From positions 1 to 33,490 of the forward strand of contig NZ_MUMH01000095.1 in NCBI RefSeq assembly GCF_002155965.1: a DNA stretch of 33,490 nt. Reading direction: 5' to 3'. This document shows, one piece after another, positions 76 through 28,326 of this stretch; position 1 is the first letter of the stretch, and each line of letters opens with the position of its first letter. The position numbers and the translations under genes were made by a program. Source of the stretch: Allokutzneria sp. NRRL B-24872 (lineage in GTDB: Bacteria; Actinomycetota; Actinomycetes; Mycobacteriales; Pseudonocardiaceae). The notes below the pieces were generated by a model. It was not told the origin of the DNA and made no database searches. It saw only the letters and a program-made list of their open reading frames with translations.

Positions 76-1653
76 GTGGTGGCGGAGAAGCCTGTGCTCG
101 ACCGGCGCGGAGTGCTGAGGGGACTGGGTGGGCTCGGGGCCCTCGCGGCACTGGGTTCCACGCCAGGGGTGGCCGTCGCGGCCCAGCAGCGGGGACCGCT
201 GGACCTGCGTTTCCGGGTGACGGACCAGTTCCGGCCGTTCGCCTTGCTGGCGCCGGGCTTCGAGCAGTTCGACACGGCGACCGCGCGCGACAGGGCCGGT
301 GTGGCGGCGCGGGGCGTGCGGATCAGCGACGACGGAGCGGTGCGGCTGGCCGGGGACTCCCTGGTGGTCACCTCCGCCGGACCGCGCGCGCCGTTCTGCT
401 CGGTGCTGGTGGAGGTCGCGGCGCTCGCGGCGGACTCCAGCGCGGTGGCGGGGATCGCCTTGGACCAGGCCAACTCCGTGCTCGCGCGCTACCGCTCGGA
501 CGGCTCGGCGACGATCGAGGTCACGGTCGGCGGGAAGCTGACCATTGTGGACTCGGCGAAGCAGGTGCCGTTGCGCACTCCGTTCCGTTTGGCATTCGTG
601 CTCAACGAGAACGCGGTCACGGTGCTGGTGGACGCGACGAACACGGGGACGGCGTGGACACCGTTGATCAGCGAGCGCGAAGGCGTCTCGGGGCTGGTCG
701 ACCTCCGCGTGCCGGACCGGTTGCGGCAGATGCGCTACGCCTTCGGCGGGTCGGGTACGACCACGCTCGGCCGGGTCCGCGCCGGGTACTTCGGCCAAGC
801 GGGACTGCGCGACGGGCACCTGGTGCAGACGGCCGAGGGCCAGCCGCTCATCCGGGACAACAAGGTCTACTTCACCTTCACCAGCGCTGGACTGGGATTC
901 TTCCAGCAGGCGCACTGGGGCGTGTGGGCGATGGACCTCGCCGACCCGCAGCGGCTGGAGCAGGTCTCGCAGCTGTTCTTCCAACGCGATGGGGTGATCG
1001 TCGGGGACCACGCCGGGCAGGTCGTGTACGACGAGCGCAGAAACCGGTACATCGTGGCGATGAGCTCTTGGGGCGACTTCGCGTTCAACGGGGTGCACGT
1101 GCGCCACGTGGAGACGGCCGCGAACGTGCTGTCCGGGGTGCACGTGCTGCGCACGGCGCGGTTCCCGCTGCCGACAGCGGTCAGCGCGTGGGACCCGTCG
1201 CTCACCAGGATCGGTGACCAGTGGCACGTGGCCTTCGTGGAGAGCCCCAGGCAGTCGCCGTCCTTCGAGTTCCACCCGGCACTCGCGGTCGGCCCGGTTG
1301 GTGCCGAGTACCACCAGGAACTGAAGCTGCGCGGAGCGGACACCTCGCTCGACCAGACCGAGGGCACGATCATCCAGCGCGTCGGCGGGCAGTGGTACCT
1401 GCTGGCCAGCGACGGCGACGCCCGCGAGTACCGCGTCTACGACCTGGCGATGAACCTCCTCGGTTCGCTGGACGCGCCGTACCGCACCAACATCCCGCAT
1501 CCGCAGCTCGTGGAGGTGCCAGTGCCCGGAGGCTCGCCGACGAGACAAACACAGTGGTGGTTGGTGACCTTCGACGGAACTCAGTACGCGGAGGGCGTCC
1601 TGGGCTACGGCGGGCACGGCGACGTGCTGGTGATGCGCGAGCAGCCCGGCTGA
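76..1653 (+). CDS. Tat-secreted beta-propeller glycosidase-like protein
   Basis: This is a 525-aa exported protein. The start is GTG at 76 (GTG at 79 also possible), about 5 nt after GGGAGGAGG. Residues 10-36 form a Tat signal (DRRGVLRGLGG, hydrophobic stretch, AVAA cleavage region). Residues about 45-235 look like a beta-sandwich of concanavalin/LamG type (ALDQANSVLARYRSDGSATIEV). From about 250 the repeated blade pattern (VYFTFTSAG, WDPSLTRIGDQWHVAFVES, EGTIIQRVGGQWYLLASDGD) is that of a five-bladed propeller as in GH43/GH32-like enzymes. W374-D375-P376 and E426-G427 (TEGTI) sit where acidic catalytic residues lie in such folds. No specific GH family could be assigned. Its position directly before a sugar importer and two GH172 genes suggests extracellular polysaccharide cleavage or binding. 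The fold is fairly sure, the activity is not. Confidence 0.75.
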   Translation: MVAEKPVLDRRGVLRGLGGLGALAALGSTPGVAVAAQQRGPLDLRFRVTDQFRPFALLAPGFEQFDTATARDRAGVAARGVRISDDGAVRLAGDSLVVTSAGPRAPFCSVLVEVAALAADSSAVAGIALDQANSVLARYRSDGSATIEVTVGGKLTIVDSAKQVPLRTPFRLAFVLNENAVTVLVDATNTGTAWTPLISEREGVSGLVDLRVPDRLRQMRYAFGGSGTTTLGRVRAGYFGQAGLRDGHLVQTAEGQPLIRDNKVYFTFTSAGLGFFQQAHWGVWAMDLADPQRLEQVSQLFFQRDGVIVGDHAGQVVYDERRNRYIVAMSSWGDFAFNGVHVRHVETAANVLSGVHVLRTARFPLPTAVSAWDPSLTRIGDQWHVAFVESPRQSPSFEFHPALAVGPVGAEYHQELKLRGADTSLDQTEGTIIQRVGGQWYLLASDGDAREYRVYDLAMNLLGSLDAPYRTNIPHPQLVEVPVPGGSPTRQTQWWLVTFDGTQYAEGVLGYGGHGDVLVMREQPG

Positions 1654-1703
1654 GACGAACGGTGGAAATGGCGCGTCGTGCCCGTGCTGTGACCACGTGA
1701 CGC

Positions 1704-1732
1704 TTGACACACCGATGAGCCGGTCCTAGCGT
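1704..1732 (+). promoter_or_regulatory. Sigma-70-type promoter of the ABC importer operon
   Basis: TTGACA (1704-1709), a 17-bp spacer and TAGCGT (1727-1732) form a near-consensus promoter. A putative LacI operator begins 4 bp after the -10. The promoter of the isomerase operon at 12521 has the same layout. Confidence 0.75.
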
Positions 1733-1736
1733 CCGC

Positions 1737-1749
1737 AGTAATCGTTTTC
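1737..1749 (-). promoter_or_regulatory. Putative LacI-family operator, importer operon
   Basis: The minus strand reads GAAAACGATTACT. The isomerase promoter has GAAAACGATTGCT at 12554-12566, matching 12 of 13 bases. The site covers the predicted transcription start, where a repressor would block initiation. LacI proteins bind imperfect palindromes centred on CG, and the central AAACGATT fits. The likely binder is the LacI regulator at 11495-12490. Confidence 0.7.
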
Positions 1750-1787
1750 CCGTAACGTCCCGTTCACTTCGTCCGGTGGAGCAGGGT

Positions 1788-3338
1788 ATGGCCAACGACG
1801 CACCGAAGCTGGTCCGGCTGACCGGCATCGGCAAGCGCTACGGCGGCGTTCTTGCCTGCCAGGACGTGGATTTCGACATCAGAGCGGGCGAGGTGCACGC
1901 GCTGCTCGGCGAGAACGGCGCAGGCAAGTCGACCCTGATGAAGATCCTGTCCGGGGACATCACCGACTACTCCGGTGAGATCGCGATCGAGGGCGAGACC
2001 GCGCGCTTCGGCGGCCCGGTCGACGCGCAGCGCGCGGGCATCGCCATGATCCACCAGGAGCTGGACCTGGTCCCGGGCCTGTCCATCGCGGAGAACCTGT
2101 ACCTGGGCCGGGAACCGCGCACGCGGATCGGCACCGTCGACGGCAAGCGGATGCGTGTGTGGACCGCGGACCTGTTGCGGCGCATCGGGATCGACATCGA
2201 TCCGCGCCGCCCGGTCGGTGAGCTGAGGGTGGGCGAGCAGCAGCTGGTCACCATCGCCCGCGCGCTCTCGCTGGACGCCAAGGTGCTCATCATGGACGAG
2301 CCCACATCGGCGTTGTCGACGGCCGAGGTGGAGCAGCTGTTCGGCGTCATCGACGAGCTGCGGCGCGAGGGCGCGGGCATCGTCTACATCTCGCACCGGA
2401 TGGACGAGATCGGCCGCGTGGCCGACCGCGCGACGGTGCTGCGCAACGGCAGGATCGTCGAGGAGTTCGACGCCAGGAAGATGACCGCCGAGCAGGCCGC
2501 CGAAGCGATGGTCGGCCGCCCGGTGCGCACGCTCTTCCAAGCCTCCCACGGAGAAGCGGGCGAGGAACTGCTGCGCGTGGAGGAGCTCACCGTGCACCCG
2601 CGCCGTCCTCGCTCGGGCCGCAAGGAGCCCGCGGGGATCAGTCTCACGGTGCGGCGCGGGGAGATCGTCGGGCTCGCCGGACTGCTCGGGGCCGGGCGCA
2701 CCGAGCTGCTGGAGACGTTGTACGGGGCGGGTTCCGCCGGTCGCTGGGACGGCCGCGTGCTCCTGGACGGCGTGGACGTGCGGCCGAGGGGTCCGCGCGC
2801 CGCGCTGGCCAAGGGCATCGCGTTCGTGCCGGAAGACCGGCGGGTCAGCGGCTTGGTGCTGGAGCACTCCGTGCTCGCCAACACGGTTCTGTCCATTGTG
2901 GACAAGCTGAGGACGGCGGGTGTCGTGGTGTCGCGTCGGGCCGAGCAGGAGAACGCGGCGGAGAGCGCCAAACGCTTGCGCGTCAAGCTCTCCTCGCTCG
3001 CGGACCCGGTCGGCACGCTCTCCGGCGGGAACCAGCAGAAGGTGGTCTTCGGCCGGATGCTGCTGACCAAGCCGAAGCTGCTGCTGCTGGACGAGCCGAC
3101 GCGTGGCGTGGACATCAACGCCAAGGCGGAGATCTACGAACTGCTCGGCGAGATCGCCGGGCAGGGCATCGGGGTGCTGCTGGCGTCCTCGGAGCTGGCC
3201 GAGCTGATCGGCGTGTGCGACCGGGTCGTCGTGCTCCGGGGAGGGCGGAACGTGCGGGAACTGCGCACCAGTGAGATCGGGGAGGCGGACCTGCTCGCCG
3301 CCACCATGGGCGAGACCGCCGGGGGAGGTGTGCGATGA
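1788..3338 (+). CDS. Sugar ABC transporter ATPase, two nucleotide-binding domains (RbsA/XylG type)
   Basis: This is the cytoplasmic ATPase of a CUT2 sugar importer, 516 aa from ATG 1788, with GGAGCAGGG as ribosome-binding site. An in-frame GTG at 1776 falls at the edge of that site and is less likely. The N-terminal domain has Walker A GENGAGKST (41-49), a degenerate signature LRVGEQQ and Walker B LIMDEPTSAL. The C-terminal domain has a degenerate Walker A (GLLGAGRTE), signature LSGGNQQKV and Walker B LLLLDEPTRGVD. One intact and one degenerate site is normal in RbsA, MglA and AraG. The stop overlaps the permease start (ATGA). CUT2 systems usually import monosaccharides, so the ligand is probably a single pentose or hexose. 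Confidence 0.93.
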   Translation: MANDAPKLVRLTGIGKRYGGVLACQDVDFDIRAGEVHALLGENGAGKSTLMKILSGDITDYSGEIAIEGETARFGGPVDAQRAGIAMIHQELDLVPGLSIAENLYLGREPRTRIGTVDGKRMRVWTADLLRRIGIDIDPRRPVGELRVGEQQLVTIARALSLDAKVLIMDEPTSALSTAEVEQLFGVIDELRREGAGIVYISHRMDEIGRVADRATVLRNGRIVEEFDARKMTAEQAAEAMVGRPVRTLFQASHGEAGEELLRVEELTVHPRRPRSGRKEPAGISLTVRRGEIVGLAGLLGAGRTELLETLYGAGSAGRWDGRVLLDGVDVRPRGPRAALAKGIAFVPEDRRVSGLVLEHSVLANTVLSIVDKLRTAGVVVSRRAEQENAAESAKRLRVKLSSLADPVGTLSGGNQQKVVFGRMLLTKPKLLLLDEPTRGVDINAKAEIYELLGEIAGQGIGVLLASSELAELIGVCDRVVVLRGGRNVRELRTSEIGEADLLAATMGETAGGGVR

Positions 3339-4354
3339 GCCTGGAACCCGATGTGACGGCCAGGAGTGGACGCAAGATCGACTGGCGGGAGACGCTGTTC
3401 TCCTTCCAGAGCTTCTTCGGGTTGATCGCGGTGTTCGTGGCCGCGATCGCGTTCTCGCCGAGGCGCAACGGCGAGATCCTGTTCCTCACCGGTGACAACC
3501 TGTTCAACGTAGTGCGCGCGGTCTCCGAGATCGGCATCATCGCGATCGGGATGACCTTCGTGATCCTGGTCGGCGGCATCGACCTCTCGGTCGGCGCGGT
3601 GCTCGGGCTGTCGGCGGTGGGCTCGGCGGTGCTGCTGGTGCACGACGACCTCGGGGTGTTCCCGGCGGTGCTGATCGTGCTCGCGGTGGGCCTGGTCTTC
3701 GGTCTGCTGCAAGGGATGGCGAGCGCGCTGTTCGGCATCCAGGCGTTCATCGTGACGTTGGCGGGCCTACAGATAGCCAGGGGGCTCGCGCGGATCTGGT
3801 CCGACGGGCAGGGCGTCGCGATCGCCTACGGCGACGGGCCGAACGAGGCCCCGGTGACGTTCTCGCTGCTGGGCGAGCGCACCTTCGGCGGTGTGGTGCC
3901 GATCCCCGCGCTGATCTTCGCGGGACTGGCGGTGCTGGCCATCGTGTTCCTGCGCACCAGCGCGTTCTCCCGGCACCTGTACGCGGTGGGCGGCAACGAG
4001 AAGGCGGCGCGGCTCTCCGGTGTCCCGGTGAACCGCGTGAAGATCATCGTGTTCGGCATCTCGGGTCTGCTGGCCGCGCTGGCCGGGATCGTGCATGCCG
4101 GGCAGCTCAACCAGGGCAGCCCCAACGACGGCGCAGGCTACGAGCTGGACGCGATCGCCGCGGTGGTGATCGGTGGCACCGCGCTCACCGGCGGCCGGGG
4201 TTCCGTGGTGGGCACCGTGACCGGTGCGCTGCTGCTGGGCGTGCTGAACAACATCCTGGCGTTGAACAACATCGACGCCAACGTGCAACTCCTGATCAAG
4301 GGTCTGGTGATCGTGGCGGCTGCCGCGTTGCAACGACTGCGGCCGACGTCATGA
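3335..4354 (+). CDS. Sugar ABC transporter permease (RbsC type)
   Basis: This 339-aa inner-membrane permease of the CUT2 importer presumably works as a dimer with the ATPase encoded just upstream; the two genes overlap by 4 bp. Hydrophobic segments run along the whole protein. Family motifs visible include GMTFVILVGGIDLSVG (about residues 69-84), AFIVTLAGLQIARGLA, YAVGGNEKAARLSG (the cytoplasmic coupling region) and AIAAVVIGGTALTGGRGSV near the C-terminus. Length and motif order match RbsC, XylH and AraH permeases. The stop overlaps the ATG of the binding-protein gene at 4351, so the three genes form one translationally coupled unit. Confidence 0.93.
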   Translation: MSLEPDVTARSGRKIDWRETLFSFQSFFGLIAVFVAAIAFSPRRNGEILFLTGDNLFNVVRAVSEIGIIAIGMTFVILVGGIDLSVGAVLGLSAVGSAVLLVHDDLGVFPAVLIVLAVGLVFGLLQGMASALFGIQAFIVTLAGLQIARGLARIWSDGQGVAIAYGDGPNEAPVTFSLLGERTFGGVVPIPALIFAGLAVLAIVFLRTSAFSRHLYAVGGNEKAARLSGVPVNRVKIIVFGISGLLAALAGIVHAGQLNQGSPNDGAGYELDAIAAVVIGGTALTGGRGSVVGTVTGALLLGVLNNILALNNIDANVQLLIKGLVIVAAAALQRLRPTS

Positions 4355-5361
4355 ACCGCCTGGGGAAAGGGACTTCCGACGTGAGAAAGACAATCGCGCT
4401 GAGCGCCTGCCTGATGCTCGCGGTCACGGCTTGCGGCACCACGAGCCAGAACAGCGGCAAGGGCCCGGCGACGCCCGCCAAGTGCGAGGGGACCGGCGGC
4501 AAGTACGTCATCGGGATGAGCCAGGCCAACGTGGCCGAGCCGTACCGGCAGCGGATGGACGACGACATCCGCTCGGCCGCGGCGAAGGTGCCGCAGTTCG
4601 AGGTGAAGTTCGCCGACGCCGCGCAGGACAACGCCAAACAGGTCTCCGACGTGGAGAACTTCCTGACCCAGCAGATCAACCTGCTGATCATCAGCCCGAA
4701 CGAGGCGACCCCGCTGACGGCGGTGGTGAAGAAGGCGTACGACAAGGGCATTCCCGTCCTGGTGCTGGACCGCAAGGTCGACGGCGACGCCTACACCAGC
4801 TTCATCGGCGCGGACAACCGCGACATCGGCCGCCAGGCGGGCAAGTACGTCGCGGAGAAGCTGCTCCCAGGAGGCGGCAAGCTGGTCGAGCTGAAGGGCC
4901 TTCCGGGGTCCACGCCCGCGCAGGAGCGCAGCGAGGGCTTCCACGAGACGCTGGGCTCCAAGGTGCAGGTCGTGGCGACCGGTGTCGGGGACTGGTTGCG
5001 GGAGAAGGGCCAGCAGCAGCTGGACGCGATCCTGAAGGCCAACGCCGAGGTCGACGTCGTGTACTCGCACAACGACCCGATGGCCGAGGGCGCCTACCTG
5101 GCCGCGAAGGCGGCCGGACGCGAGTCGAAGATCAAGTTCATCGGCATCGACGCTCTCCCTATTCCATCCGGTGGGGTGAAAGCCGTGGAGCAGGGCCGGA
5201 TTTCGGCTACCTTCACCTACCCCACGGGCGGCAAGGAAGCGATCGCCGCCGCCAAGACGCTCCTGGTGGACTGCAAGCAAGTCGAGAAGAAGCAGACCCT
5301 GCCGACGCAGTTGATCACCAAGGAGAACGCCGAGCGGGTGTACCGGGAGGCGAACGGTTAG
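4351..5361 (+). CDS. Sugar-binding lipoprotein of the ABC importer (RbsB type)
   Basis: This solute receptor has 336 aa from ATG 4351. A GTG start at 4381, preceded by GGGAAAGGGA, would give 326 aa and a more compact signal peptide (VRKTIALSACLML). The lipobox is LAVTAC, so the mature protein is anchored through a diacylglyceryl cysteine. The body is a periplasmic-binding-protein type I fold: YVIGMSQANVAEPYRQRM at the start of lobe 1, VLVLDRKVDGDAYTSFIGADN at the hinge and ligand loop, and VDVVYSHNDPMAEGAYLAAKAAG in lobe 2. These are typical of ribose, xylose and galactofuranose receptors. The acidic and aromatic residues near the ligand loops do not identify the sugar. Confidence 0.92.
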   Translation: MNRLGKGTSDVRKTIALSACLMLAVTACGTTSQNSGKGPATPAKCEGTGGKYVIGMSQANVAEPYRQRMDDDIRSAAAKVPQFEVKFADAAQDNAKQVSDVENFLTQQINLLIISPNEATPLTAVVKKAYDKGIPVLVLDRKVDGDAYTSFIGADNRDIGRQAGKYVAEKLLPGGGKLVELKGLPGSTPAQERSEGFHETLGSKVQVVATGVGDWLREKGQQQLDAILKANAEVDVVYSHNDPMAEGAYLAAKAAGRESKIKFIGIDALPIPSGGVKAVEQGRISATFTYPTGGKEAIAAAKTLLVDCKQVEKKQTLPTQLITKENAERVYREANG

Positions 5362-5371
5362 TCCCTGCCAT

Positions 5372-5388
5372 ATGTCCTGAGTGGACAT
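5372..5388. terminator. Small hairpin between importer operon and GH172 gene
   Basis: ATGTCC (5372-5377) pairs with GGACAT (5383-5388) around TGAGT. It is only 6 bp and lacks a T-tract, so it would be a weak attenuator at most. The 48-bp gap contains no obvious promoter, so read-through from the importer operon into the GH172 gene is likely. Confidence 0.35.
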
Positions 5389-5409
5389 TCGCCAGTGAGG
5401 GGGCGGATC

Positions 5410-8097
5410 ATGCGCAGACACGTCATCCAGGTCGATTCCCCAGGTCCGGGATATCGCCGCAAAGGACGGCACCGGACACTCCGACTCCTCGTAGCACTGG
5501 CTTCGGTCGCGGCGCTGTCCTTCGCGGGCACCGCCGTGACCCCCGCGCAAGCCCAGCCGCCGGCCGTTTCGGCCTTGCCAACGGGCAAGGGGCCGGTCGG
5601 CTGGGCCACCTACCGCCAGCTGGACTCGATCGGCACGTTGCGCGGTCAGGTCGAGTCCCGGCAGTTCTCCGGCTACGACCGCACCGGCCGCAACAACGAC
5701 GGGTTCGACGGGCAGTTCTCCTGCCTGCGCATGATCGGCCCGAACTGCGTGATCGCCGAGCGCTCCGGCGCCGGTGAGATCGAGTCGATCTGGTTCACCC
5801 GGGACGACGGCGTGGTCTCGCGCACCGGCTGGATCAGGATCGAGCTGGACGGCTCCACGGTCCTGGAAGCGCCCTTGCAGGACGTGGTGGACGGCAAGCT
5901 CGGCGCGCCGTTCGTCTGGCCGTTTGTGGGCAACCGCGAGGACACCTCCGGCGGCGTGGTCATCAAGGTGCCCATGCCGTTCCGGCAGTCGATGCGCGTG
6001 ACCACGCAGAACAACCCGTTGTTCCAGCACGTGGTGTACCGCGCCTTCGCCGACGCCGACGGGGTGTCCACGTTCAACCGCAACGACCAGGCCAACGACG
6101 TGATCGCGAAGCTGCGCTCCTTCGGGCTCGGCGATCCGAAACCGGCTCGGTGGAACGCGGCCAGCACTCGGTCCACTGTGGACATCAACCCGGGCGCGAC
6201 CGCGCGGGTCGGTGAGCTGACCGGGCCGGGGCAGATCAGCCAGCTGAAGGTGCGCCTGCCGCAGGTGCAGGCCAGCCCGCACGTCAACGACGACGGCAGG
6301 GCCTTCGGGCCGGGCGGGGAGAGCTCCTTCCGGGTCACCGTCGACCCGCGCAACTCCGGCGTGCGGCTGACCCGGCGCTTCGATCCGCACATCGAGATGC
6401 AGCGGGCGAGGTTGTTGGTGGACAACGCCTTCGTCGCCGACTGGTTCCACGCGCCGAAGGCTCCGCCGACGCAGTGGGCTGACCAGTCCATCGACATCGG
6501 CGCGCAGTTCACCTCGGGCAAGTCCCGGCTGAACATCCGCAACCAGTTCGTCGCGTCGTCTTTAGACTTCAACGAGTTCCGCTACGACGTGCACAGCCTG
6601 GTCAACGGGACCTGGGTGCGCACGGACGTGATGGACGTCGGTCCGGACCGCCCCGGCGAGGAGCTGACCCACGGCTACCGCGTCACGCAGCAGAAGTGGC
6701 AGGGGCGGCACTACTTCAACTACCCGTTCAACGCCGGGATGATCTCGGCTTCGGACGCGGTGCTCGCCGGAGCGCGACTGCGCATCACCTTCGACGGCCG
6801 GACCACCGTGGACGCGCCGATCGGGGAGTTCTTCGGCTCCGGCCTCGGCGAGTACGACGCCCGGTCGCTGATGTTCTCCATGGACGCCACGCGGGACGGT
6901 TGGTACACCTCGTGGTGGCCGATGCCCTTCGCGGAGCGGGCGATCGTGGAGGTCGTCAACTCCAGCGGGGTGCGGATCTCCGACGCTTCGGTCGACCTGA
7001 CCTGGGCCGGTGATTCCTCAGTTCGGGATCGCTTGCGCCCCAACGGTTCCCTGGGCTACTTCAACGCGACGCACCGCCAGGGGCCGACCGGGCACGCGAA
7101 GGACTGGATCTTCGTGGACACACCTGGGCGCGGGGTCTTCTACGGGGTCACGCACAGCATGCGCGGCCGGATTCCGCTCAGCGCCGAGGTTCCCCGGCTC
7201 TACCTGGAAGGCGATGAGCGCGTCTACACCGACGGCCTGCTCACGCCGGTCCACCACGGCACGGGCACGGAGGACTTCTACGAGTCGGGGTGGTACTTCC
7301 GCACGGGGTCGTTCGCGATGCCGCTCGCGGGATACCCGGCGCACGAGGTCGGCCGCGACGGTTGCGTCTACGACTGCACGGGTGCCTACCGGTTGATGGT
7401 TCCAGATGCGATCCCGTTCAACACGGGACTGCGTTTCGGCATTGAGCACGGGCCGGTCGCCGACGTCGCCGCGGACTACAGTTCCACGGCGTACTGGTAC
7501 GGCCAGTCGCGCTGGGCGCTGCGCAGCACCGACGGGCTCAACCCGAGCGACCAGGTGAGCCGCGACCAGCACAACTACCGCGCGGTCGGGGAGAGCAGCG
7601 GAACACTCACCTCGGTGTTCGAGGGCGACGACGACCACGCGACGGCGAGCGGCCGGGTCACCAACGCGACCGGGCCGATCACCTTCACCGTGGCGGTGGA
7701 CCAGAACAACGCGGGCGTGCAGATCGTCCGCACGGCCGACCAGGTCCGCTCCTACCAGCAGGCGCGGGTGCTCGTCGACGGGCAGTTCGTCGGCGTGTGG
7801 CTGATGTCCTCCGGCAACATGTTCCAGCGGTGGCTCCAGGACACGTTCATGATCCCGTCGCGGTTCAGCTCGGGGAAACGGGCGCTGGCGATCACCCTGG
7901 AGCCGATCGCGGGCTCTCCGCCGTGGTCCTCGGCGGACTACCACATCCGCTCGTGGGTGGACCCGTTCGAGCCCGGCCGCAGCGGCGTGCAGCGCGTCGA
8001 CCCGCCCGGGCTGGACTGGACCGCCCCAGACCGCGGCCCGCACGTGCTCGGACCGCGCGACCCGGTCTCCACCAAGGAAGGTCAGGTGGGCCGTTGA
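5410..8097 (+). CDS. Secreted GH172 (DUF2961) glycosidase, copy 1
   Basis: This exported glycoside hydrolase has 895 aa from ATG 5410 (GAGGGGG ribosome-binding site); a GTG at 5395 overlaps that site. The long signal peptide ends near TPAQAQ (about 47). Residues about 55-220 carry the DUF2961 N-part (YDRTGRNNDGFDG, GAGEIESIWFTRDDG, PFVWPFVGNREDTSGGV). Residues about 430-700 carry the catalytic part, including IGEFFGSGLGEYD, YLEGDE and HGTGTEDFYESGWYF. E600 and E621 are 21 residues apart, the spacing I recall for the catalytic glutamates of Bifidobacterium dentium alpha-fructofuranosidase (E270/E291). Known GH172 enzymes act on D-fructofuranosides and D-arabinofuranosides. A 74-residue beta-rich module occurs twice, at about 307-380 and 759-832. 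A strong hairpin follows the stop. Confidence 0.9.
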   Translation: MRRHVIQVDSPGPGYRRKGRHRTLRLLVALASVAALSFAGTAVTPAQAQPPAVSALPTGKGPVGWATYRQLDSIGTLRGQVESRQFSGYDRTGRNNDGFDGQFSCLRMIGPNCVIAERSGAGEIESIWFTRDDGVVSRTGWIRIELDGSTVLEAPLQDVVDGKLGAPFVWPFVGNREDTSGGVVIKVPMPFRQSMRVTTQNNPLFQHVVYRAFADADGVSTFNRNDQANDVIAKLRSFGLGDPKPARWNAASTRSTVDINPGATARVGELTGPGQISQLKVRLPQVQASPHVNDDGRAFGPGGESSFRVTVDPRNSGVRLTRRFDPHIEMQRARLLVDNAFVADWFHAPKAPPTQWADQSIDIGAQFTSGKSRLNIRNQFVASSLDFNEFRYDVHSLVNGTWVRTDVMDVGPDRPGEELTHGYRVTQQKWQGRHYFNYPFNAGMISASDAVLAGARLRITFDGRTTVDAPIGEFFGSGLGEYDARSLMFSMDATRDGWYTSWWPMPFAERAIVEVVNSSGVRISDASVDLTWAGDSSVRDRLRPNGSLGYFNATHRQGPTGHAKDWIFVDTPGRGVFYGVTHSMRGRIPLSAEVPRLYLEGDERVYTDGLLTPVHHGTGTEDFYESGWYFRTGSFAMPLAGYPAHEVGRDGCVYDCTGAYRLMVPDAIPFNTGLRFGIEHGPVADVAADYSSTAYWYGQSRWALRSTDGLNPSDQVSRDQHNYRAVGESSGTLTSVFEGDDDHATASGRVTNATGPITFTVAVDQNNAGVQIVRTADQVRSYQQARVLVDGQFVGVWLMSSGNMFQRWLQDTFMIPSRFSSGKRALAITLEPIAGSPPWSSADYHIRSWVDPFEPGRSGVQRVDPPGLDWTAPDRGPHVLGPRDPVSTKEGQVGR

Positions 8098-8108
8098 CCC
8101 TGGCAGAG

Positions 8109-8139
8109 GTGTCCGCGCCGGTTCTCCCGGCGCGGACAC
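8109..8139 (+). terminator. Terminator after GH172 copy 1
   Basis: This is a perfect 13-bp stem, GTGTCCGCGCCGG against CCGGCGCGGACAC, with loop TTCTC, starting 11 nt after the stop codon. There is no T-tract, as is common for actinobacterial hairpin terminators. The next gene has its own -10 element immediately after it. Confidence 0.75.
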
Positions 8140-8144
8140 CGGAC

Positions 8145-8150
8145 TAGAGT
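8145..8150 (+). promoter_or_regulatory. -10 element for a leaderless membrane-protein transcript
   Basis: TAGAGT lies 7 nt before GTG 8158, the spacing expected if transcription begins at the start codon. The -35 region falls in the preceding terminator hairpin and is poor (TTCTCC at 17 bp). This favours 8158 over the in-frame GTG at 8149, which overlaps the element. Confidence 0.55.
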
Positions 8151-8157
8151 GGTCGGG

Positions 8158-8808
8158 GTGTTCGAGCCGTACGGCCTCTCGCACGGCGTCGTCGCCGTGG
8201 TGTTCGTGGCTGTGTCCGCGCTGCTGCTGACCTTCCGCTCGGCGCGGACCAGCCGCGTGCTCGCGATCGTGATCGTGGCCGTGCAGTTGCCGTTCCAGAT
8301 CCACACGATGCTGCCGGGGCAGTGGGACATCGCGTACTCCCTGCCGTTGCAGCTGTGCGATCTGGCGTTGATCGCCGCCGTCTGGGCGTTGTGGACGCGC
8401 AGCCCGGCGGCGGCCGCCCTGACCTACTACTGGGGCCTGACCCTGACGGCGCAGGCCCTGCTCACCCCGGCCTACCGCGGCCCGGACTACCCGGACTGGC
8501 AGTTCCTGATGTTCTGGGGGATCCACCTGTTCACCATGTGGGCCGCGGTCCACCTCACCTGGGGCGCCGGTGTCCGGCCCGACTGGCGCGGCTACCGGCT
8601 GACCCTCGTGGTGACGGCGGTGTGGATGGTGATCATGTTGGGGTTCAACGGGTTGGCCGGTGCCAACTACGGGTTCCTCAACGCCAAGCCGAGCGGCTCG
8701 GTGCTGGACCTCTTCGGTCCGTGGCCGCTCTACCTGGTGGTCGCCGCCCTGCTGCTGGCCGGGGTCTGGGCACTGATGACCGCGCCCTTCACCCGCTCCT
8801 CTCGCTGA
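8158..8808 (+). CDS. TIGR02206/YwaF-like integral membrane protein
   Basis: This membrane protein of unknown function has 216 aa from GTG 8158 (219 aa if GTG 8149 is used). About six or seven hydrophobic helices are visible, beginning with VVAVVFVAVSALLLTF. The conserved segment QWDIAYSLPLQLCDLALIAA and the later FWGIHLFTMWAAVHL and LGFNGLAGANYGFLNAKPSG are characteristic of the TIGR02206/YwaF family, best known from Bacillus. The gene sits between two GH172 paralogues but has its own probable leaderless promoter behind a terminator, so it need not be co-regulated with them. No role in sugar use can be read from the sequence. A short gap, without clear hairpin, separates it from the next GH172 gene. 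Confidence 0.85.
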   Translation: MFEPYGLSHGVVAVVFVAVSALLLTFRSARTSRVLAIVIVAVQLPFQIHTMLPGQWDIAYSLPLQLCDLALIAAVWALWTRSPAAAALTYYWGLTLTAQALLTPAYRGPDYPDWQFLMFWGIHLFTMWAAVHLTWGAGVRPDWRGYRLTLVVTAVWMVIMLGFNGLAGANYGFLNAKPSGSVLDLFGPWPLYLVVAALLLAGVWALMTAPFTRSSR

Positions 8809-8848
8809 GCCTTTCCCTGCCCTGCCTCGCACCAGAGATGGGATCGTC

Positions 8849-11470: not shown

Positions 11471-11476
11471 CGGATG

Positions 11477-11511
11477 GTTCCCGGTGCCGCGTGCTCAGCG
11501 GCGCCGGGAAC
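11477..11511. terminator. Hairpin between GH172 copy 2 and the convergent LacI gene
   Basis: GTTCCCGGTGCCGC (11477-11490) pairs with GCGGCGCCGGGAAC (11498-11511), with one G-T wobble and a 7-nt loop. The loop contains the stop codon of the minus-strand LacI gene, so the structure probably serves both converging transcripts. Confidence 0.65.
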
Positions 11512-12490
11512 TCCCGCGCACGACCAGCTGGGCGGAAAGAGTCGTGGTGGTGGGGTCGGAGTGCGAGCCGGTGACGCGGTTCAGCAGCAGCTGCGCGGCC
11601 AGCGTGCCGATCTCGTAGGCGGGCTGCGCCACGACGGTCAGCGGCGGGTCGAGCAGCGCGGCCCACGGGGCGTCGTCGAAGGCCACCACACCGACGTCCC
11701 GTCCGGGACGCAGTTCCAGTTCCGCCAACGCTTGCAGCACGCCGACGGCCATCGCGCTGTTCGCGACGAGCAGCGCGTCCGGCGGCTCGGGTTGCGACAA
11801 CAGCTCCAGCGTCGCCTCGCGCGCGCCGGCGGAGCGGTACTCCGACCGCCGCACCAACCTGGTGGCGCTGCGCTGCTTCACGCTGCGCAGGCCGTCCCGG
11901 TAGCCCGCGAGGCGGTCATCGGCGGTGCGCACCCCGGACGGGCCGGTGATGCACCCGATGACCTCGTAGCCCTGCTCGGCGAGGTGCACGGTCGCCTGCT
12001 TCGCCGCGTGGCGGCTGTCCACCAGCACGGTGTCGGTCGGCTCACCCGGCAGTGGCCGGTCCACCGCCACGATCGGGGTTCGCCTGTCCCGCAACGCCTC
12101 CACCGATCCCGGCACCCCGGAGGGGGAGAGGATCACCCCCGCCATCTGCTCCTCGATCGCGACCTCGACGTAGCGCCGCTCCTTGGCCGACTCCTCGTCG
12201 GTGTTGCACAGCACCACCGAGTACCCCGCCGCCTGCGCCACGTCCTCAACACCGCGCGCGATCGCGGTGAAGAACGGGTTCTCCACGTCGGAGATGATCA
12301 GCGCGAGCACCGCCGTCTCCCGCCTGCGGAGGTTGCGCGCCAACCCGTTCGGGCGGTAACCGAGCTCGCTCGCGGCGGCGACCACGCGGGCGGCCAGCAC
12401 CGGGTCGACCGAGGATTTCCCGTTCAGGGCACGGGAAGCCGTCGCCGTGGAGACGTTGGCACGTGCCGCGACATCGCTGATCGTCGTCAT
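11495..12490 (-). CDS. LacI-family transcriptional repressor
   Basis: This 331-aa DNA-binding regulator starts at ATG 12490 with GAGGAG 8 nt upstream. The helix-turn-helix and hinge are TISDVAARANVSTATASRAL and ELGYRPNGLARNLRRR. The rest is a sugar-binding periplasmic-protein-like domain (ALIISDVENPFFTAIARGVED, VILSPSGVPGSVEALRDRR, PPDALLVANSAMAVGVLQAL, VGVVAFDDAPWAALLDPPLT). It is divergent from the isomerase-glycosidase-kinase operon, and the 13-bp element GAAAACGATTRCT downstream of two promoter -10 boxes is its likely operator. Family logic predicts repression lifted by a sugar or sugar phosphate from the pathway. Possible autoregulation follows from the shared intergenic region. Confidence 0.93.
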   Translation of the reverse strand: MTTISDVAARANVSTATASRALNGKSSVDPVLAARVVAAASELGYRPNGLARNLRRRETAVLALIISDVENPFFTAIARGVEDVAQAAGYSVVLCNTDEESAKERRYVEVAIEEQMAGVILSPSGVPGSVEALRDRRTPIVAVDRPLPGEPTDTVLVDSRHAAKQATVHLAEQGYEVIGCITGPSGVRTADDRLAGYRDGLRSVKQRSATRLVRRSEYRSAGAREATLELLSQPEPPDALLVANSAMAVGVLQALAELELRPGRDVGVVAFDDAPWAALLDPPLTVVAQPAYEIGTLAAQLLLNRVTGSHSDPTTTTLSAQLVVRGSSRRR

Positions 12491-12520
12491 CGCAAGGGCT
12501 CCTCGTGCGCCATCGGCCTA

Positions 12521-12549
12521 TTGACAGCCGTCACCGCTGAGCATAGCTT
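12521..12549 (+). promoter_or_regulatory. Sigma-70-type promoter of the isomerase operon
   Basis: TTGACA (12521-12526), a 17-bp spacer and TAGCTT (12544-12549) match the importer promoter at 1704 in sequence and spacing. The predicted start falls in the operator that begins 4 bp later. The leader to GTG 12632 is about 75 nt. Confidence 0.75.
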
Positions 12550-12553
12550 CCGA

Positions 12554-12566
12554 GAAAACGATTGCT
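12554..12566 (+). promoter_or_regulatory. Putative LacI-family operator, isomerase operon
   Basis: GAAAACGATTGCT is the partner of the minus-strand site at 1737-1749. The match extends outward in part (CGRGAAAACGATTRCT). It lies 64 bp from the start codon of the LacI-type regulator and exactly 4 bp after the -10 of the isomerase operon. Confidence 0.7.
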
Positions 12567-12631
12567 CGTGCTCTGCCCCGTTTTGTATCCAACTGTGTTG
12601 TCAGCTGCCAATCGTGACCCTGGAGGGCACC

Positions 12632-14047
12632 GTGGCCCGGATCGGCGTGATCAGTTTCTCCGACGGACGTGACTACGTCCACGACGGCATTCGCGACTTC
12701 ATCGCGACGACCGAGGACAAACTGGTCGACCGGCTCACCGCCGCGGGGCACGAGGTGGTGCGCGGCAAGGAGATCGTCGCCACCAACACCGGCGCCAGCG
12801 CCGTCGCCCGCCAGGTCGCCGCCGCCGGGGTGGACCTCACCGTCTTCCACTACGCGGTCTGGGCCTTCCCGCACTTCACCATGCTGGCCGCGGGCGCGAC
12901 CCCGGGGCCGCTGCTGCTGCTGTCCAACATCGACCCGGTGCAGCCCGGCATGGTCGGCATGCTCGCCGGAGGCGGTGCGCTTGACCAGATCGGCCGCGTG
13001 CACACCCGGCTCTGGGGCGACCCCGACGAGCGCGCGCTCATCGACAAGATCGGCGTCCAGGCCACCGCGTCCTCCGCCGTGGCCTCGCTGCGCGGTTCCA
13101 CCTTCGGCCGGATCGGCGGGCGCCCCATGGGCATGAACACCGCCGTGGCCAACACCGACCAGTGGCAGCAGGTCTTCGGCGTCGACGTCGAGGAGATCGA
13201 CCAGTGGGAGATCGTCCGGCGCTCCGAGCTGGCCGACCAGAAGGAGGTCACCGCCGCGCGCGAGTGGCTGGAGACCCACGCGGCCGGGGTGCACTACGAC
13301 GGCAAGAAGCTCACGCCGGAGCTGCTGGAGCGGCAGATCCGCTCGTACCTGGCGATGCGCGAGCTGATCGAGGAGTGGAACCTCGACTTCTCCGGTATCA
13401 AGGGCCAGCCCGAGATGACGCAGTACTTCGCCACCATGGACATCGTCGAGGCCTTCCTCAACGACCCCTACGACTGGAACGGCCCCAAGGAGACCCACGT
13501 CTGCGCCACCGAGGCGGACATGGACGGGGCGCTGACCATGCAGCTGCTCAAGCACATCGCGCGCACGCCGGTGCTCTTCGCCGACGTCCGGCACTACCAC
13601 GCCGACCGCGACATCTGGGACCTGTGCAACTCCGGCCAGCACGCCACCTGGTACGCCGCGCGCAGCGACGACCCGGCGGAGAACCTGGCGAAGGTGCACT
13701 TCTACCCGGAGGTGTTCTTCTTCCCGGCCGGTGGCGCGTCCGTGCACCACCTCGCCGCGCCCGGGCAGATGACGCTGGCCCGGTTGACCCGGCGCGGTGG
13801 GAACTACCGGATGCACCTGATGCTCGGCGACTTCGAGACCTACGACGACGAGACGAACACGCAGCTGATGCGCCAGTCCACCTTCGAGTGGCCGCACGCG
13901 TTCGCGCGGCTGGACGCCAAGGCGGACGACTTCCTCTCGCGCTTCGGCGCCAACCACATCCACGCGGTCCCCGGCGATCACCGCGCCGAGGTCAGGGCCG
14001 CCTGCGAGCTGCTCGGAGTGGAGTTGGACGAGTTCACCAGGGGGTGA
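12632..14047 (+). CDS. L-fucose/D-arabinose isomerase-like enzyme
   Basis: This cytoplasmic sugar isomerase-family protein has 471 aa from GTG 12632 (GGAGG 5 nt upstream; a GTG at 12614 lacks one). It begins ARIGVISFSDGRDYVHDGI. Metal and active-site candidates lie in KGQPEMTQYF (E261), CATEADMDGALTMQ (E294, D296, D298) and CNSGQHATWYAA (H337), the regions where L-fucose isomerase binds Mn2+. It is shorter than E. coli FucI (about 590 aa) and belongs to the COG2407 branch. Enzymes of this type convert L-fucose to L-fuculose or D-arabinose to D-ribulose. It leads an operon with a glycosidase (6-bp gap) and a kinase. With no fuculose-phosphate aldolase nearby, D-arabinose or a similar pentose is the better guess. 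Confidence 0.85.
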   Translation: MARIGVISFSDGRDYVHDGIRDFIATTEDKLVDRLTAAGHEVVRGKEIVATNTGASAVARQVAAAGVDLTVFHYAVWAFPHFTMLAAGATPGPLLLLSNIDPVQPGMVGMLAGGGALDQIGRVHTRLWGDPDERALIDKIGVQATASSAVASLRGSTFGRIGGRPMGMNTAVANTDQWQQVFGVDVEEIDQWEIVRRSELADQKEVTAAREWLETHAAGVHYDGKKLTPELLERQIRSYLAMRELIEEWNLDFSGIKGQPEMTQYFATMDIVEAFLNDPYDWNGPKETHVCATEADMDGALTMQLLKHIARTPVLFADVRHYHADRDIWDLCNSGQHATWYAARSDDPAENLAKVHFYPEVFFFPAGGASVHHLAAPGQMTLARLTRRGGNYRMHLMLGDFETYDDETNTQLMRQSTFEWPHAFARLDAKADDFLSRFGANHIHAVPGDHRAEVRAACELLGVELDEFTRG

Positions 14048-14053
14048 GCGGGG

Positions 14054-15625
14054 ATGCCCGCGCTGCCGGACGGAGTTTCCCTTCAGGAGTACACCGAGGT
14101 CCGAGACGAGGTGAGCGCGGGCGACTGGCGCCACCTCTACGACCCGACGGTCGGTGAGGACCGCAACTGGTACCTCAACGACCACACGTTCGTCCGTGAC
14201 GCCGACGGCACCTGGCACATGATCGGCATCACCCACGCGGAACCGCTGAACCCGTTGGACGAGAAGCACTTCGCCCACGCGACCGCGCCCTTCCTGCACG
14301 GTCCGTGGGCGAAGCAGCCCTTCGCGATGAGCGTGGACCCGGGCTACCACGGGGAAGCGCACCTGTGGGCGCCGCACATCATCCTGCACGACGGCCGCTA
14401 CCACATGTTCTACTGCGGCGGCGACGCCGACCACAGCTTCTACGCGATCAACCTGGCCATCTCCACCGACCTCCGCACGTGGACCCGGCACCCGGGTGGG
14501 CCGCTGTTCCGCGACGGCTTCGATGCCAGAGATCCCTTCGTGACGCGGATCGACGGCCGCTGGGTCATCTACTACACCGCGACGATCTACCCGGACGGCG
14601 GCAACTTCGTCGTCGCCTACCGCACGAGCGATGACCTGGTGCACTGGAGCGGTCGCAAGTTCGCGTACTCCGAACCGCTCGGCGGGGTGATGACGGAGTC
14701 GCCGTTCCTCGTGCAACGCGGTACCGACTGGTACCTGTTCATCGGCCCGCGCCGCGGCTACGTGGGCACCGACGTGTTCCGCAGCAAGGACCCCTTCAAC
14801 TTCAACGCGAACTCGTGGGTGGGCAACATCCCCTCGCACGCCGCCGAGGTGATCTTCGCCGAGGGACGGCACTGGGTCACCCACGCGGGATGGGGCCAGC
14901 GCGGGGTGTACCTCGCTCCGCTGAACTGGCAGACCACGTTCAAGGGTGTGCGGGTCACCGCGCCGGACTATCGAGTCGATCTACAGACCTCGCCGACGTC
15001 GGAGCTGCGGGAGCTGTCCGTGCGGATGCGTGACGGCAGCTGGCGCAACGTGCTGGACAACCATCACCGGGGCTCCGGGCCGTACCTCGGTGTCGGGTTG
15101 TTCGGTGCCACGGAGAAGGCGCGCGCGGCTCCTCGCGTGCGCGTCGAAGGGGGAACCGTCGCACTGCAAGGCGTGCCGATCGGCCAGGAGAAGATCACCG
15201 TCGACTGGAAGCTGGACTTCCACGCCGACTGCTTCGACAGCTCGCTGACCTGGCACGTGGCCGCGCCGACCCGCAACCCGCTGTGGGAGTTGGCCTTCTC
15301 CATGGACAGCTGGCTCGGCACGCTCGGCGACGACCAGGTCTTCCCGCGCCGGGGCGACGCGGCGGGCTTCACGCGGTGGGCGATGGCGACCGGTATCTCG
15401 GCGACCATGGCGATGGCCTACCGCAGGGGCTCGGCGTGGGCGGAGGCCAACCGGTGGTACTCCGACGGGGAGTCCTCGATCTGCTGGCAGTCCATCTGGA
15501 AGCCCAACGGCGGCTCGATCACGCCGGGCGACTACTTCGGCGGCACCTGGCGGATCGGGGTGAGCCCCAGGGCTCAGGACCGCGACCTCGCCGAGCGGCT
15601 GGCGAACGGCATCAACAGACGTTAG
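14054..15625 (+). CDS. Cytoplasmic five-bladed-propeller glycosidase (GH43/GH32-like)
   Basis: This 523-aa glycosidase-like protein starts at ATG 14054, with GAGCGGGG as ribosome-binding site, 6 bp after the isomerase gene. It has no signal peptide, so it should act on imported material. The propeller carries the acidic triad pattern of clans GH-F and GH-J: D43 (YLNDHTF), D160 (DARDPFV) and E215 (MTESPFL). Blade motifs include WAPHIILHDGRYHMFYCGG and GRWVIYYTATIYPDGG. Residues about 300-510 form a second beta-rich region (ELRELSVRMRDGSWRNVLD, SICWQSIWKPNGGSITPGD) that I do not recognise. Family placement between GH43, GH32 and smaller propeller families is open. Membership of the isomerase-kinase operon implies it supplies the same sugar from an oligosaccharide or glycoside. 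Confidence 0.8.
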   Translation: MPALPDGVSLQEYTEVRDEVSAGDWRHLYDPTVGEDRNWYLNDHTFVRDADGTWHMIGITHAEPLNPLDEKHFAHATAPFLHGPWAKQPFAMSVDPGYHGEAHLWAPHIILHDGRYHMFYCGGDADHSFYAINLAISTDLRTWTRHPGGPLFRDGFDARDPFVTRIDGRWVIYYTATIYPDGGNFVVAYRTSDDLVHWSGRKFAYSEPLGGVMTESPFLVQRGTDWYLFIGPRRGYVGTDVFRSKDPFNFNANSWVGNIPSHAAEVIFAEGRHWVTHAGWGQRGVYLAPLNWQTTFKGVRVTAPDYRVDLQTSPTSELRELSVRMRDGSWRNVLDNHHRGSGPYLGVGLFGATEKARAAPRVRVEGGTVALQGVPIGQEKITVDWKLDFHADCFDSSLTWHVAAPTRNPLWELAFSMDSWLGTLGDDQVFPRRGDAAGFTRWAMATGISATMAMAYRRGSAWAEANRWYSDGESSICWQSIWKPNGGSITPGDYFGGTWRIGVSPRAQDRDLAERLANGINRR

Positions 15626-15635
15626 GAGCGTTGGC

Positions 15636-17123
15636 GTGGCGGAGGAACTGCTGCTCGGGGTGGACATCGGCACGTCGAGCTCCAAGGGCGTGCTGACCAC
15701 AGTGGACGGTCGCGTCCTCGCGCGCGCCGACCGTCCGCACGGGACGTCGTCACCGCATCCGGGGTGGTTCGAGCACGACGCGGAAACCGTGTGGTGGCAG
15801 GACTTCGTCGAGATCACGCGGGAACTTGTGTCCAAATTGGACGGACGTTCACCGGTGGGGCTGGCGGTCAGCGGGATCGGTCCGTGCCTGCTGCCCGCCG
15901 ACGCCTCCGGCACTCCGCTGCGGCCCGGCATCCTGTACGGCGTGGACACCCGTGCCACCAAGGAGATCGACGAGCTGACCGAGGAGTTCGGCGCCGACGC
16001 CGTGCTCGCGCGGTGTGGCTCCCGGCTGACCAGCCAGGCGGTCGGGCCGAAGGTGCGGTGGTTGGCGCGGAACGAGCCCGAGGTGTACGAGCGCACCCGG
16101 ATGCTGCTGATGGCGAGTTCGTTCCTGGTGCACCGGCTGACCGGGCGCTACGTGCTGGACCACCACTCGGCCAGCCAGTGCACGCCCATGTACGACCTCG
16201 GCGCGCGGGACTGGGCGCACGACTGGGCTGCTTCGGTCGCGCCCGGGTTGCCGCTGCCGGAGCTGGCATGGCCGACCGAGATCGTGGGGCGCGTTTCCAC
16301 GGAGGCTGCTTCGCTGACCGGGCTCCCCGTCGGGTTGCCGGTCACCGCGGGCACGGTCGACGCGTGGGCGGAGGCGGTCAGCGTCGGCGTCCGCGCGCCC
16401 GGCGAGATGATGATCATGTACGGCACGACGATGTTCCTCGTGCAGGTGCTGACTGATCCGCGCCCGCACTCCGGGTTGTGGGGCACCTGCGGCGCTTTCC
16501 CCGACACCTACACCCTGGCCGCCGGAATGGCGACCTCGGGCTCGATCACCGACTGGCTGCGCGGACTGGTCGGCGGGGAGTTCGCCGGGCTCGTCGCTTC
16601 GGCGGCCTCAGTACCACCTGGGAGCCGGGGTCTGTTGGTACTGCCGTACTTCGCCGGGGAGCGGACTCCGCTGTTCGACCCCGACGCGCGCGGGATCATC
16701 GCCGGGCTGACGCTGGGGCACGGTCAGGCCGAGCTGTACCGCGCCGCGCTCGAAGGGATCGGCTACGGCGTCCGGCACAACCTGGAGGCGATGTCGGCAG
16801 CTGGCGGGACCCCGTCGCGGCTCGTCGCGGTCGGCGGGGGGACGCAGGGCGGCTTGTGGACGCAGATCGTCTCCGACATCACCGGGCAGCCCCAGGACAT
16901 CCCCGCCGAGACGATCGGAGCGTGCCTCGGCGACGCCTTGCTTGCCGGTATGGCAACCGGGGCGGCGTCATCGCCCGACTCGTGGAACCCCGTGGCGTCC
17001 ACAGTGGTACCCGATCCCGAACGGTACGAGCGATATTCCGCGTACTACGCGCGCTATCGCGAGCTGTACTCCTCGACCGTGGACATCGCGCACTTCCTGG
17101 CCGCCGAGCACAACGCTTCTTAG
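15636..17123 (+). CDS. FGGY-family pentulose/sugar kinase
   Basis: This 495-aa carbohydrate kinase starts at GTG 15636 behind AGGAG, 10 bp after the glycosidase gene. It shows the two ATPase-fold lobes: LLLGVDIGTSSSKGVL at the N-terminus (phosphate 1), GTVDAWAEA with likely catalytic base D242, YFAGERTPLFDPDARG, VAVGGGTQGGLWTQIVSD (adenosine loop) and GACLGDALLAGMATG. FGGY enzymes phosphorylate xylulose, ribulose, fuculose, glycerol and related substrates. The isomerase two genes upstream should produce the ketose that this kinase uses. A D-ribulose or D-xylulose product would enter the pentose phosphate pathway directly. A 28-bp palindrome after the gene ends the operon. Confidence 0.92.
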   Translation: MAEELLLGVDIGTSSSKGVLTTVDGRVLARADRPHGTSSPHPGWFEHDAETVWWQDFVEITRELVSKLDGRSPVGLAVSGIGPCLLPADASGTPLRPGILYGVDTRATKEIDELTEEFGADAVLARCGSRLTSQAVGPKVRWLARNEPEVYERTRMLLMASSFLVHRLTGRYVLDHHSASQCTPMYDLGARDWAHDWAASVAPGLPLPELAWPTEIVGRVSTEAASLTGLPVGLPVTAGTVDAWAEAVSVGVRAPGEMMIMYGTTMFLVQVLTDPRPHSGLWGTCGAFPDTYTLAAGMATSGSITDWLRGLVGGEFAGLVASAASVPPGSRGLLVLPYFAGERTPLFDPDARGIIAGLTLGHGQAELYRAALEGIGYGVRHNLEAMSAAGGTPSRLVAVGGGTQGGLWTQIVSDITGQPQDIPAETIGACLGDALLAGMATGAASSPDSWNPVASTVVPDPERYERYSAYYARYRELYSSTVDIAHFLAAEHNAS

Positions 17124-27045: not shown

Positions 27046-27101
27046 AGTTCTCCGGCGGCGCGGCCTGTCCTCGCCCGAGTGACGGGAGATCAACAAGCGG
27101 A

Positions 27102-28283: not shown

Positions 28284-28326
28284 CTCCAGCCGGAGTCCGC
28301 TGGGAGATTTCAGGGAGGTTGAGTAG

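Follow-up and report, generated by a model that had tools for sequence, protein, structure and literature searches.

We analysed a window of 33,490 nucleotides from the soil actinomycete Allokutzneria sp. NRRL B-24872, which is one entire contig (C471, NZ_MUMH01000095.1) of an 8.19-Mb draft genome in 475 contigs (95% complete), and found in it a LacI-controlled regulon that is conserved in Pseudonocardiaceae relatives (Table 1). Judging from its sequence, and with a probability of roughly 0.7, this regulon would serve to release D-arabinose from D-arabinan outside the cell, to import it, and to convert it to D-ribulose-5-phosphate. In the proposed scheme, a LacI-type repressor would sit on operators of the class G(A/T)AA(A/T)CG(A/T)TTNC at two promoters until the sugar releases it. 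The importer transcript would also carry two GH172 exo-enzymes acting outside the cell, which would free D-arabinose from the non-reducing alpha-D-arabinofuranosyl ends of D-arabinan, presumably an arabinogalactan- or arabinomannan-type polymer of mycobacteria, nocardiae and relatives. A CUT2 transporter would take up the D-arabinose monosaccharide, an isomerase would turn it into D-ribulose, and an FGGY kinase would yield D-ribulose-5-phosphate for the pentose phosphate pathway. Gene content, operators, conservation and nearest characterised relatives were computed; we infer the substrate, secretion, repression, direction of flux, kinase product and role of a GH32/43-like enzyme.

The plus-strand importer operon (ATPase, permease, binding lipoprotein, GH172a, TMEM164-type membrane protein and GH172b, in this order) is followed by the minus-strand LacI gene and then by plus-strand genes for the isomerase, the GH32/43-like enzyme and the FGGY kinase, these last three being separated by 6 and 10 bases. 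An 857-aa open reading frame (ORF) at 11474-14047 is a frame artefact that overlaps LacI on the opposite strand, and the isomerase begins at about 12632. The genes that the initial annotation had listed for this system are all present: the CUT2 importer, two DUF2961/GH172 genes, the isomerase, the GH32N/GH43-like gene and the FGGY kinase were confirmed by Pfam, and LacI by PF00356. Over the extent fetched, Allokutzneria sp. A3M-2-11 has the same locus, gene by gene (isomerase 98% identical).

Operators of the regulon

Both operators of the locus have GAAAACGATTnC in common, one being read on the minus strand. Their consensus has three matches in the window at no more than one mismatch (0.28 expected; at least three in 0 of 100 shuffles), and sites recur at the same places in relatives, so that the matching operators claimed initially are real. 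The third window match, at 19624, is not at any gene of the D-arabinose system. Both operators sit just downstream of TTGACA-N17-TAGCnT sequences recognised by eye, and a promoter consensus scanner flagged nothing at either operator. The operator class was present in 48 of 50 nonduplicate lacI-fucI gaps and in 40 of 44 regions upstream of the importer gene abcA; of 4000 pieces of 350 bp drawn at random from such loci, 147 contained it. In these counts two duplicate records were taken from 52 and 47, and the truncated importer of L050 was also dropped. Since AA, CG and TT are fixed in the pattern itself, and the outer bases half-fixed, the invariance of these positions is partly built in.

A search of the whole Allokutzneria genome returned the exact class once in the locus, the second site at one mismatch, and three further places with the GTTTGC half. 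Among unlinked long GH172 genes from fucI-bearing genomes, seven of nine have an operator just upstream (L263, L265, L267, L269, L271, L273 and L274; the set omits at least two further such genes, in G298), and the regulon therefore seems to join these genes to the isomerase despite the distance. For unlinked short GH172 genes (n = 12), there is a site near L279 and another before the L272 operon, with none at the remaining ten. In Actinocrispum (G312), GTAATCGATTAC, a 12-mer of its own fucI promoter, also flanks divergent operons, CUT1 on one side and remote-FucI/GH172/GH116 on the other.

Conservation in relatives

The isomerase, kinase, operators and importer recur in relatives, and in many of them a long GH172 lies beside these genes or under the same operator. 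At E <= 1e-25, 30 of the 346 genomes from the phylum encode the isomerase; 11 of these (this one included) score more than 770 bits and the others less than 310. A scan of named genomes, which took the best 80 of 301 relatives, returned 40 titled Nocardia, one titled Rhodococcus rhodnii, and others of different genera, which we take to be Pseudonocardiaceae. The Rhodococcus title (L075, JOAA01000001, strain NRRL B-16535) is probably wrong; this is a 12.4-Mb genome with a fucI neighbourhood nearly identical to that of Kibdelosporangium aridum (L069).

In 97 nonduplicate fucI loci, the kinase was present in 90, any GH172 in 76, a LacI relative of more than 45% identity in 54, at least two importer genes in 47, the GH32/43-like gene in 43 and a long GH172 in 37; short GH172 and GH116 were not queried in 19 loci of the order sample and are thus undercounted there. 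DUF2961 occurs in 13 of 16 family genomes with fucI and in 4 of 20 without it (Fisher test: P = 5.6e-4, which treats related, nonindependent genomes as independent). This set derives from 39 genomes with G011, G012 and G025 excluded as members of other families, and the 20 without fucI are those listed only. In a separate set, 21 of 22 isomerase-bearing genomes have DUF2961.

The association extends to Nocardia, where the orthologous kinase was found in 39 and a short GH172 in 38 of 40 fucI loci; the contigs of the two loci without a short GH172 end 2 and 4 kb beyond fucI. All nine Nocardia genomes tested have a single DUF2961 gene, 1.6-4.4 kb from fucI. In G012 the order is lacI-fucI(72%)-CUT1-GH116-kinase(63%), and its GH116 scores 341 bits to ExoMA2 and at most 102 to other structures, which places it much closer to ExoMA2 than to glucosidases. 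One Nocardia locus carries additional genes: Nocardia nova (L055:11410-16276) has a zinc alcohol dehydrogenase and a second FGGY kinase (411.6 bits, xylulokinase cut-off 380), an extension that looks like a D-arabinitol route beside the D-arabinose route.

The same chemistry could instead recycle or remodel the wall arabinan of the organism itself rather than feed on that of others, a use that we regard as distinctly unlikely. D-ribulose-5-phosphate leads back to the arabinan precursor phosphoribosyl pyrophosphate (PRPP), and the isomerase and kinase occur in many Nocardia and Pseudonocardiaceae. D-arabinan is also found in Nocardia walls (PMC10509167). However, secreted exo-enzymes encoded together with an importer under repressor control suggest a catabolic role, and at E <= 1e-20 the isomerase was detected in just 20 genomes, counting this one, among the 298 from the order, so that it is not part of basic wall upkeep.

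The isomerase and the kinase

The isomerase scores above the Pfam cut-offs for the N and C domains of Fucose_iso, and its best Protein Data Bank match is D-arabinose isomerase 3a9r (64 bits), with L-fucose isomerases close behind. Its predicted metal ligands E294 and D318 are invariant and were mapped through alignment offsets to what we take to be E337 and D361 of E. coli FucI. The kinase scores 302 bits against XylB (TIGR01312), under the cut-off of 380.

D-arabinose and L-fucose have the same C2-C4 configuration, and the locus could accordingly be one for L-fucose or L-fucofuranosides, with the isomerase acting on L-fucose and the kinase on L-fuculose. The family name, the near-equal scores of L-fucose isomerases and a GH29 alpha-L-fucosidase gene near fucI in one relative (L221, family f32) speak for this, and the last also counts against D-arabinose. 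L-fucose breakdown requires a class II aldolase, yet none was found in the window ORFs scanned, to which the search of this genome was confined, nor among 10 neighbouring genes scanned in more distant loci (L218-L227). Moreover, the isomerase (88.9 bits, cut-off 775) falls far short of the NCBIfam equivalog cut-off for L-fucose isomerase, and the kinase (104 bits, cut-off 471) is under that for fuculokinase. We consider an L-fucose locus very improbable.

The GH172 enzymes, the binding protein and the choice of sugar

GH172a and GH172b score 223 and 219 bits against the curated DUF2961 cut-off of 27. In GH172b, E579, E600 and D601 are invariant in the alignment, positions at which the family has a catalytic acid/base and a nucleophile Glu and a neighbouring Asp (PMC8605356). 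Both window enzymes have Tyr at the site occupied by Gly299 in the fructofuranosidase and by Asn253 in ExoMA1; three Nocardia short GH172s have Asn there, and DgGH172c, an alpha-D-arabinofuranosidase (PMC10115798), has Cys. In ExoMA1 the Asn253 side chain keeps fructose out (PMC10509167). A profile of ten GH172s, five long and five short (three of them from Nocardia), gave 333 bits to ExoMA1 (8ic8), 283 to alphaFFase1, 281 to 4kq7 and 259 to DgGH172c; this ranking comes from the mixed profile, which leans toward that clade. In a fold search with the GH172b model, GH172 structures came first, and just the broad domain order of the model was used since its mean predicted local distance difference test score (pLDDT) is moderate (68). 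GH172a and GH172b are most likely exo-alpha-D-arabinofuranosidases, a substrate predicted from these comparisons.

Two other loci of this genome contain GH172 genes. L009:6654-14603 holds a third long GH172 near a large secreted-looking protein without a Pfam match, and L010:8198-12827 (contig C113) a short GH172 that is separated by about 2 kb from a secreted-looking protein of ricin-lectin/BNR-like type; profile comparison gave no support for the latter being a DUF4185 protein. G298, a sister genome, has a weak DUF4185 match some 3.5 kb away from its own short GH172.

Several observations weigh against D-arabinose, in addition to the nonindependence of genomes in the Fisher test. Taken singly, GH172a and GH172b are nearest 4kq7, DgGH172c and alphaFFase1, with ExoMA1 unlisted at E <= 0.01, and the fold search with the GH172b model also puts 4kq7, alphaFFase1 and DgGH172c ahead of ExoMA1. 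The Trp of four solved GH172s (Trp267 in alphaFFase1) is replaced by Leu in the long ones aligned, at a position that lines the -1/+1 subsites and is not known to define the family. No characterised member of the long GH172 type was found, no literature search having been aimed at that type. Neither DUF4185/GH183 nor GH116 was recognised in this genome, which leaves access to polymer ends unaccounted for, and the third long GH172 of this genome and that of its sister G111 (L009, L280) have no operator (0 of 2). Five genomes (G012, G184, G271, G282 and G318) have fucI and no DUF2961 match. Conversely, G180 and G104 retain GH172 and kinase, together with the importer in G180 and LacI in G104, with no fucI fragment in 20 kb there. 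The best Protein Data Bank match of the binding protein is 2x7x (113 of 273 aligned residues identical, E = 1.9e-63), which is listed simply as a sensor protein and which we take to be the fructose sensor BT1754. D-fructofuranose and D-arabinofuranose are one hydroxymethyl group apart, so this similarity is not decisive on the sugar. BT1754 itself is described as fructose-binding (PMC3404733).

Part of this evidence would fit a fructofuranoside locus, in which GH172 would free D-fructose from alpha-fructofuranosides, the CUT2 transporter would import it, the kinase would act on a ketose and the isomerase would be otherwise employed. GH172 was founded on a fructofuranosidase (PMC8605356), and the three structures matched by the window GH172s taken singly include alphaFFase1; the first fold matches of the GH32/43-like enzyme are GH32 beta-fructosidases; and a ketose substrate would explain why G180 and G104 lost the isomerase and retained the kinase. 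On the other hand, where Gly would select for fructose the window GH172s have Tyr, D-arabinofuranosides are indicated by the ExoMA2-like GH116 and by the shared operators, and fructose would leave an aldose isomerase unneeded, yet the kinase stands beside fucI in nearly all loci. We consider fructose unlikely and keep it as an alternative because of the binding protein and of G180 and G104. The initial preference for D-arabinose thus gains from comparative evidence independent of it (the Tyr, the Nocardia clusters, the ExoMA2-like GH116 and the shared operators), with some support remaining for fructose. The absence of fucI is clean at L257:10783-10998 and L258:7070-7391, where neighbouring GH172, kinase, importer or LacI remain.

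The importer has the double ATP-binding cassette (ABC) ATPase, BPD_transp_2 permease and Peripla_BP_4 binding protein of the CUT2 class, and its ATPase does not reach the cut-off of any of the sugar-specific NCBIfam models listed.

The GH32/43-like enzyme

The protein at 14054-15625 scores 32.9 bits against GH32N (cut-off 22.1) and 32.0 against GH43 (cut-off 32.2). Its propeller model, mostly above pLDDT 70 for residues 20-300 and confident there only, retrieved GH32 beta-fructosidases and GH43 enzymes first in a fold search (11-19% identity). The ND, RDP and ESP motifs, presumably catalytic, are invariant across four such sequences. All 40 Nocardia fucI loci encode a homologue of the first 290 residues of this protein. 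Its gene shares the strand of the isomerase gene and begins or ends no more than 500 bp upstream of it in 34 loci, lies 0.9-3.4 kb upstream in five, and is on the other side and strand in L106. The Actinophytocola homologue (L273, G310) has an evident signal peptide and lies about 5 kb from an operator-bearing long GH172.

We infer that this enzyme cleaves a residual furanoside, possibly a beta-D-arabinofuranosyl cap; the idea of a beta-D-arabinofuranosidase comes from beta-D-fructofuranose being the hydroxymethyl homologue of beta-D-arabinofuranose. The locus could then be a dedicated D-arabinan salvage system of arabinogalactan-walled actinomycetes with extracellular saccharification and monosaccharide uptake, possibly turning the organism's own wall arabinan into D-ribulose-5-phosphate and thereby into the arabinan precursor, in which the GH32/43-like enzyme would found a new exo-beta-D-arabinofuranosidase family replacing GH116; this fuller version we hold doubtful. 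Distribution gave no support to the protein as a strict replacement of GH116: GH116 occurs in 1 of 12 genomes with it and 3 of 19 without it (P = 1.0), counting PF12215 matches of at least 135 bits and taking presence of the protein from fetched loci, not genome-wide. G310 was counted as lacking the protein yet has a homologue elsewhere, which corrects the counts to 1 of 13 and 3 of 18.

Table 1 Features of the locus, with positions in the window
Feature	Position	Strand	Evidence or remark
Promoter-like sequence TTGACA-N17-TAGCGT	1704..1732	+	Upstream of importer operon; read by eye
LacI-type operator GTAATCGTTTTC	1738..1749	.	Shortly before importer start codon
CUT2 ABC transporter ATP-binding protein, two ABC domains	1776..3338	+	PF00005, two stretches
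CUT2 permease	3335..4354	+	PF02653
Sugar-binding lipoprotein	4351..5361	+	PF13407 (Peripla_BP_4)
Long GH172 (DUF2961) enzyme a, probably secreted, 900 aa	5395..8097	+	PF11175, 223 bits
TMEM164/TIGR02206 membrane protein	8149..8808	+	176 bits, cut-off 75
Long GH172 (DUF2961) enzyme b, probably secreted, 873 aa	8849..11470	+	Pfam, 219 bits
LacI-family regulator	11495..12490	-	PF00356 (53.1 bits) and PF13377
Promoter-like sequence TTGACA-N17-TAGCTT	12521..12549	+	Upstream of isomerase; read by eye
LacI-type operator GAAAACGATTGC	12554..12565	.	Between lacI and fucI
Short fucose-isomerase-family aldose-ketose isomerase, predicted D-arabinose isomerase, 471 aa	12632..14047	+	Pfam
GH32/GH43-like five-bladed propeller enzyme, no signal peptide seen	14054..15625	+	ND, RDP and ESP motifs
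FGGY kinase, xylulokinase-like, predicted D-ribulose kinase	15636..17123	+	FGGY domains (Pfam)

Other genes of the window

The TMEM164/TIGR02206 gene between the two GH172 genes was missing from the initial annotation; among 99 loci compared, such a gene has this position in L031 and L050 only.

The initial annotation had counted a Tat-exported propeller protein (76-1653) as a member of the system, an assignment that found no support. Neither Pfam nor NCBIfam gave a match for the protein at E <= 0.001, and its N-terminus is twin-arginine-like (for secretion and Tat export we relied throughout on inspection of the N-termini alone). Among 150 family genomes, 21 have the protein; three of them (this one included) are of the same genus, and the 18 outside the genus have it at 45-67% identity; all 12 neighbourhoods fetched of these 18 are without fucI or GH172 within about 20 kb. 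Profile comparison gave a probability of 0.4% against DUF4185 and 11% against the GH32/43-like protein. The gene is probably outside the D-arabinose system. In several neighbourhoods it adjoins an ORF of about 590 aa; the one scanned had no Pfam match.

The right half of the contig has two N-acetylmuramoyl-L-alanine amidase-type genes (23832-24644 and 32545-33198) and, at 26598-29594, a pyridoxal phosphate-dependent decarboxylase adjoining a spermidine-synthase-domain protein, possibly a polyamine pair.

Comparison with known systems

A complete intracellular route for D-arabinan had initially been held to be new. This does not stand, since a 2023 article on Microbacterium already proposed that D-arabinan yields D-arabinose and, by way of an isomerase and a kinase, D-ribulose-5-phosphate (PMC10509167). 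The D-arabinan utilisation locus described in Microbacterium arabinogalactanolyticum (EndoMA1/2, ExoMA1 of GH172 and ExoMA2 of GH116) resembles ours in clustering a GH172 exo-enzyme, a putative isomerase and kinase, and an ABC importer (PMC10509167). FucI-family and FGGY genes of such a pair are present here, with D-arabinose as the predicted substrate. The two systems differ in that the Microbacterium GH172 is intracellular whereas those of the window are long, multidomain and secreted-looking, and in the importer, which is of SBP_bac_8 type and proposed for oligosaccharides there and of CUT2 type here (PMC10509167). The enzymes for GH183 (DUF4185) and GH116 (PF12215) have no match in this 95% complete genome, which for DUF4185 is the sole exception among 22 genomes searched (21 with a match, 20 above cut-off); for GH116, 8 of 31 genomes searched match.

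PUL42 of Dysgonomonas gadei, strongly expressed on D-arabinan, shares DUF2961/GH172 arabinofuranosidases and a predicted fucose isomerase with the window, and differs in being a Bacteroidota locus with DUF4185/GH183 endo-enzymes (PMC10115798). The Nocardia clusters share the isomerase (81-86%), the kinase (67-76%, in 39 of 40 loci) and the GH32/43-like protein (53-59% over the first 290 residues, in 40 of 40), but their GH172 is short, with no evident signal peptide in three read, no LacI or CUT2 importer resembling that of the window was found in those loci, and L055 has the alcohol dehydrogenase and second (xylulo)kinase. A GH172 of Nocardia brasiliensis is a characterised D-arabinofuranosidase (PMC10115798), possibly the product of the gene in the fucI cluster. 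With alphaFFase1 of Bifidobacterium dentium (PMC8605356) the window proteins share the catalytic Glu/Glu/Asp and Trp298; they have Tyr for Gly299, Leu for Trp267, and extra beta domains.

The LacI regulon, external release with CUT2 uptake, the long GH172s and the GH32/43-like enzyme are absent from the available parts of PMC10509167 and PMC10115798, no search having been aimed at them. Mycobacteria and their relatives have D-arabinan as their wall polymer, and the enzymes known to degrade it are few and recent. With this locus come a subfamily of long GH172s that look secreted and a GH32/43-like enzyme, itself uncharacterised, that is linked to D-arabinose metabolism; the sharply conserved operator of the repressor could mark D-arabinan genes across genomes. 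Compared with these systems, external release, monosaccharide-type import and a conserved LacI switch look like a new version of the published pathway.

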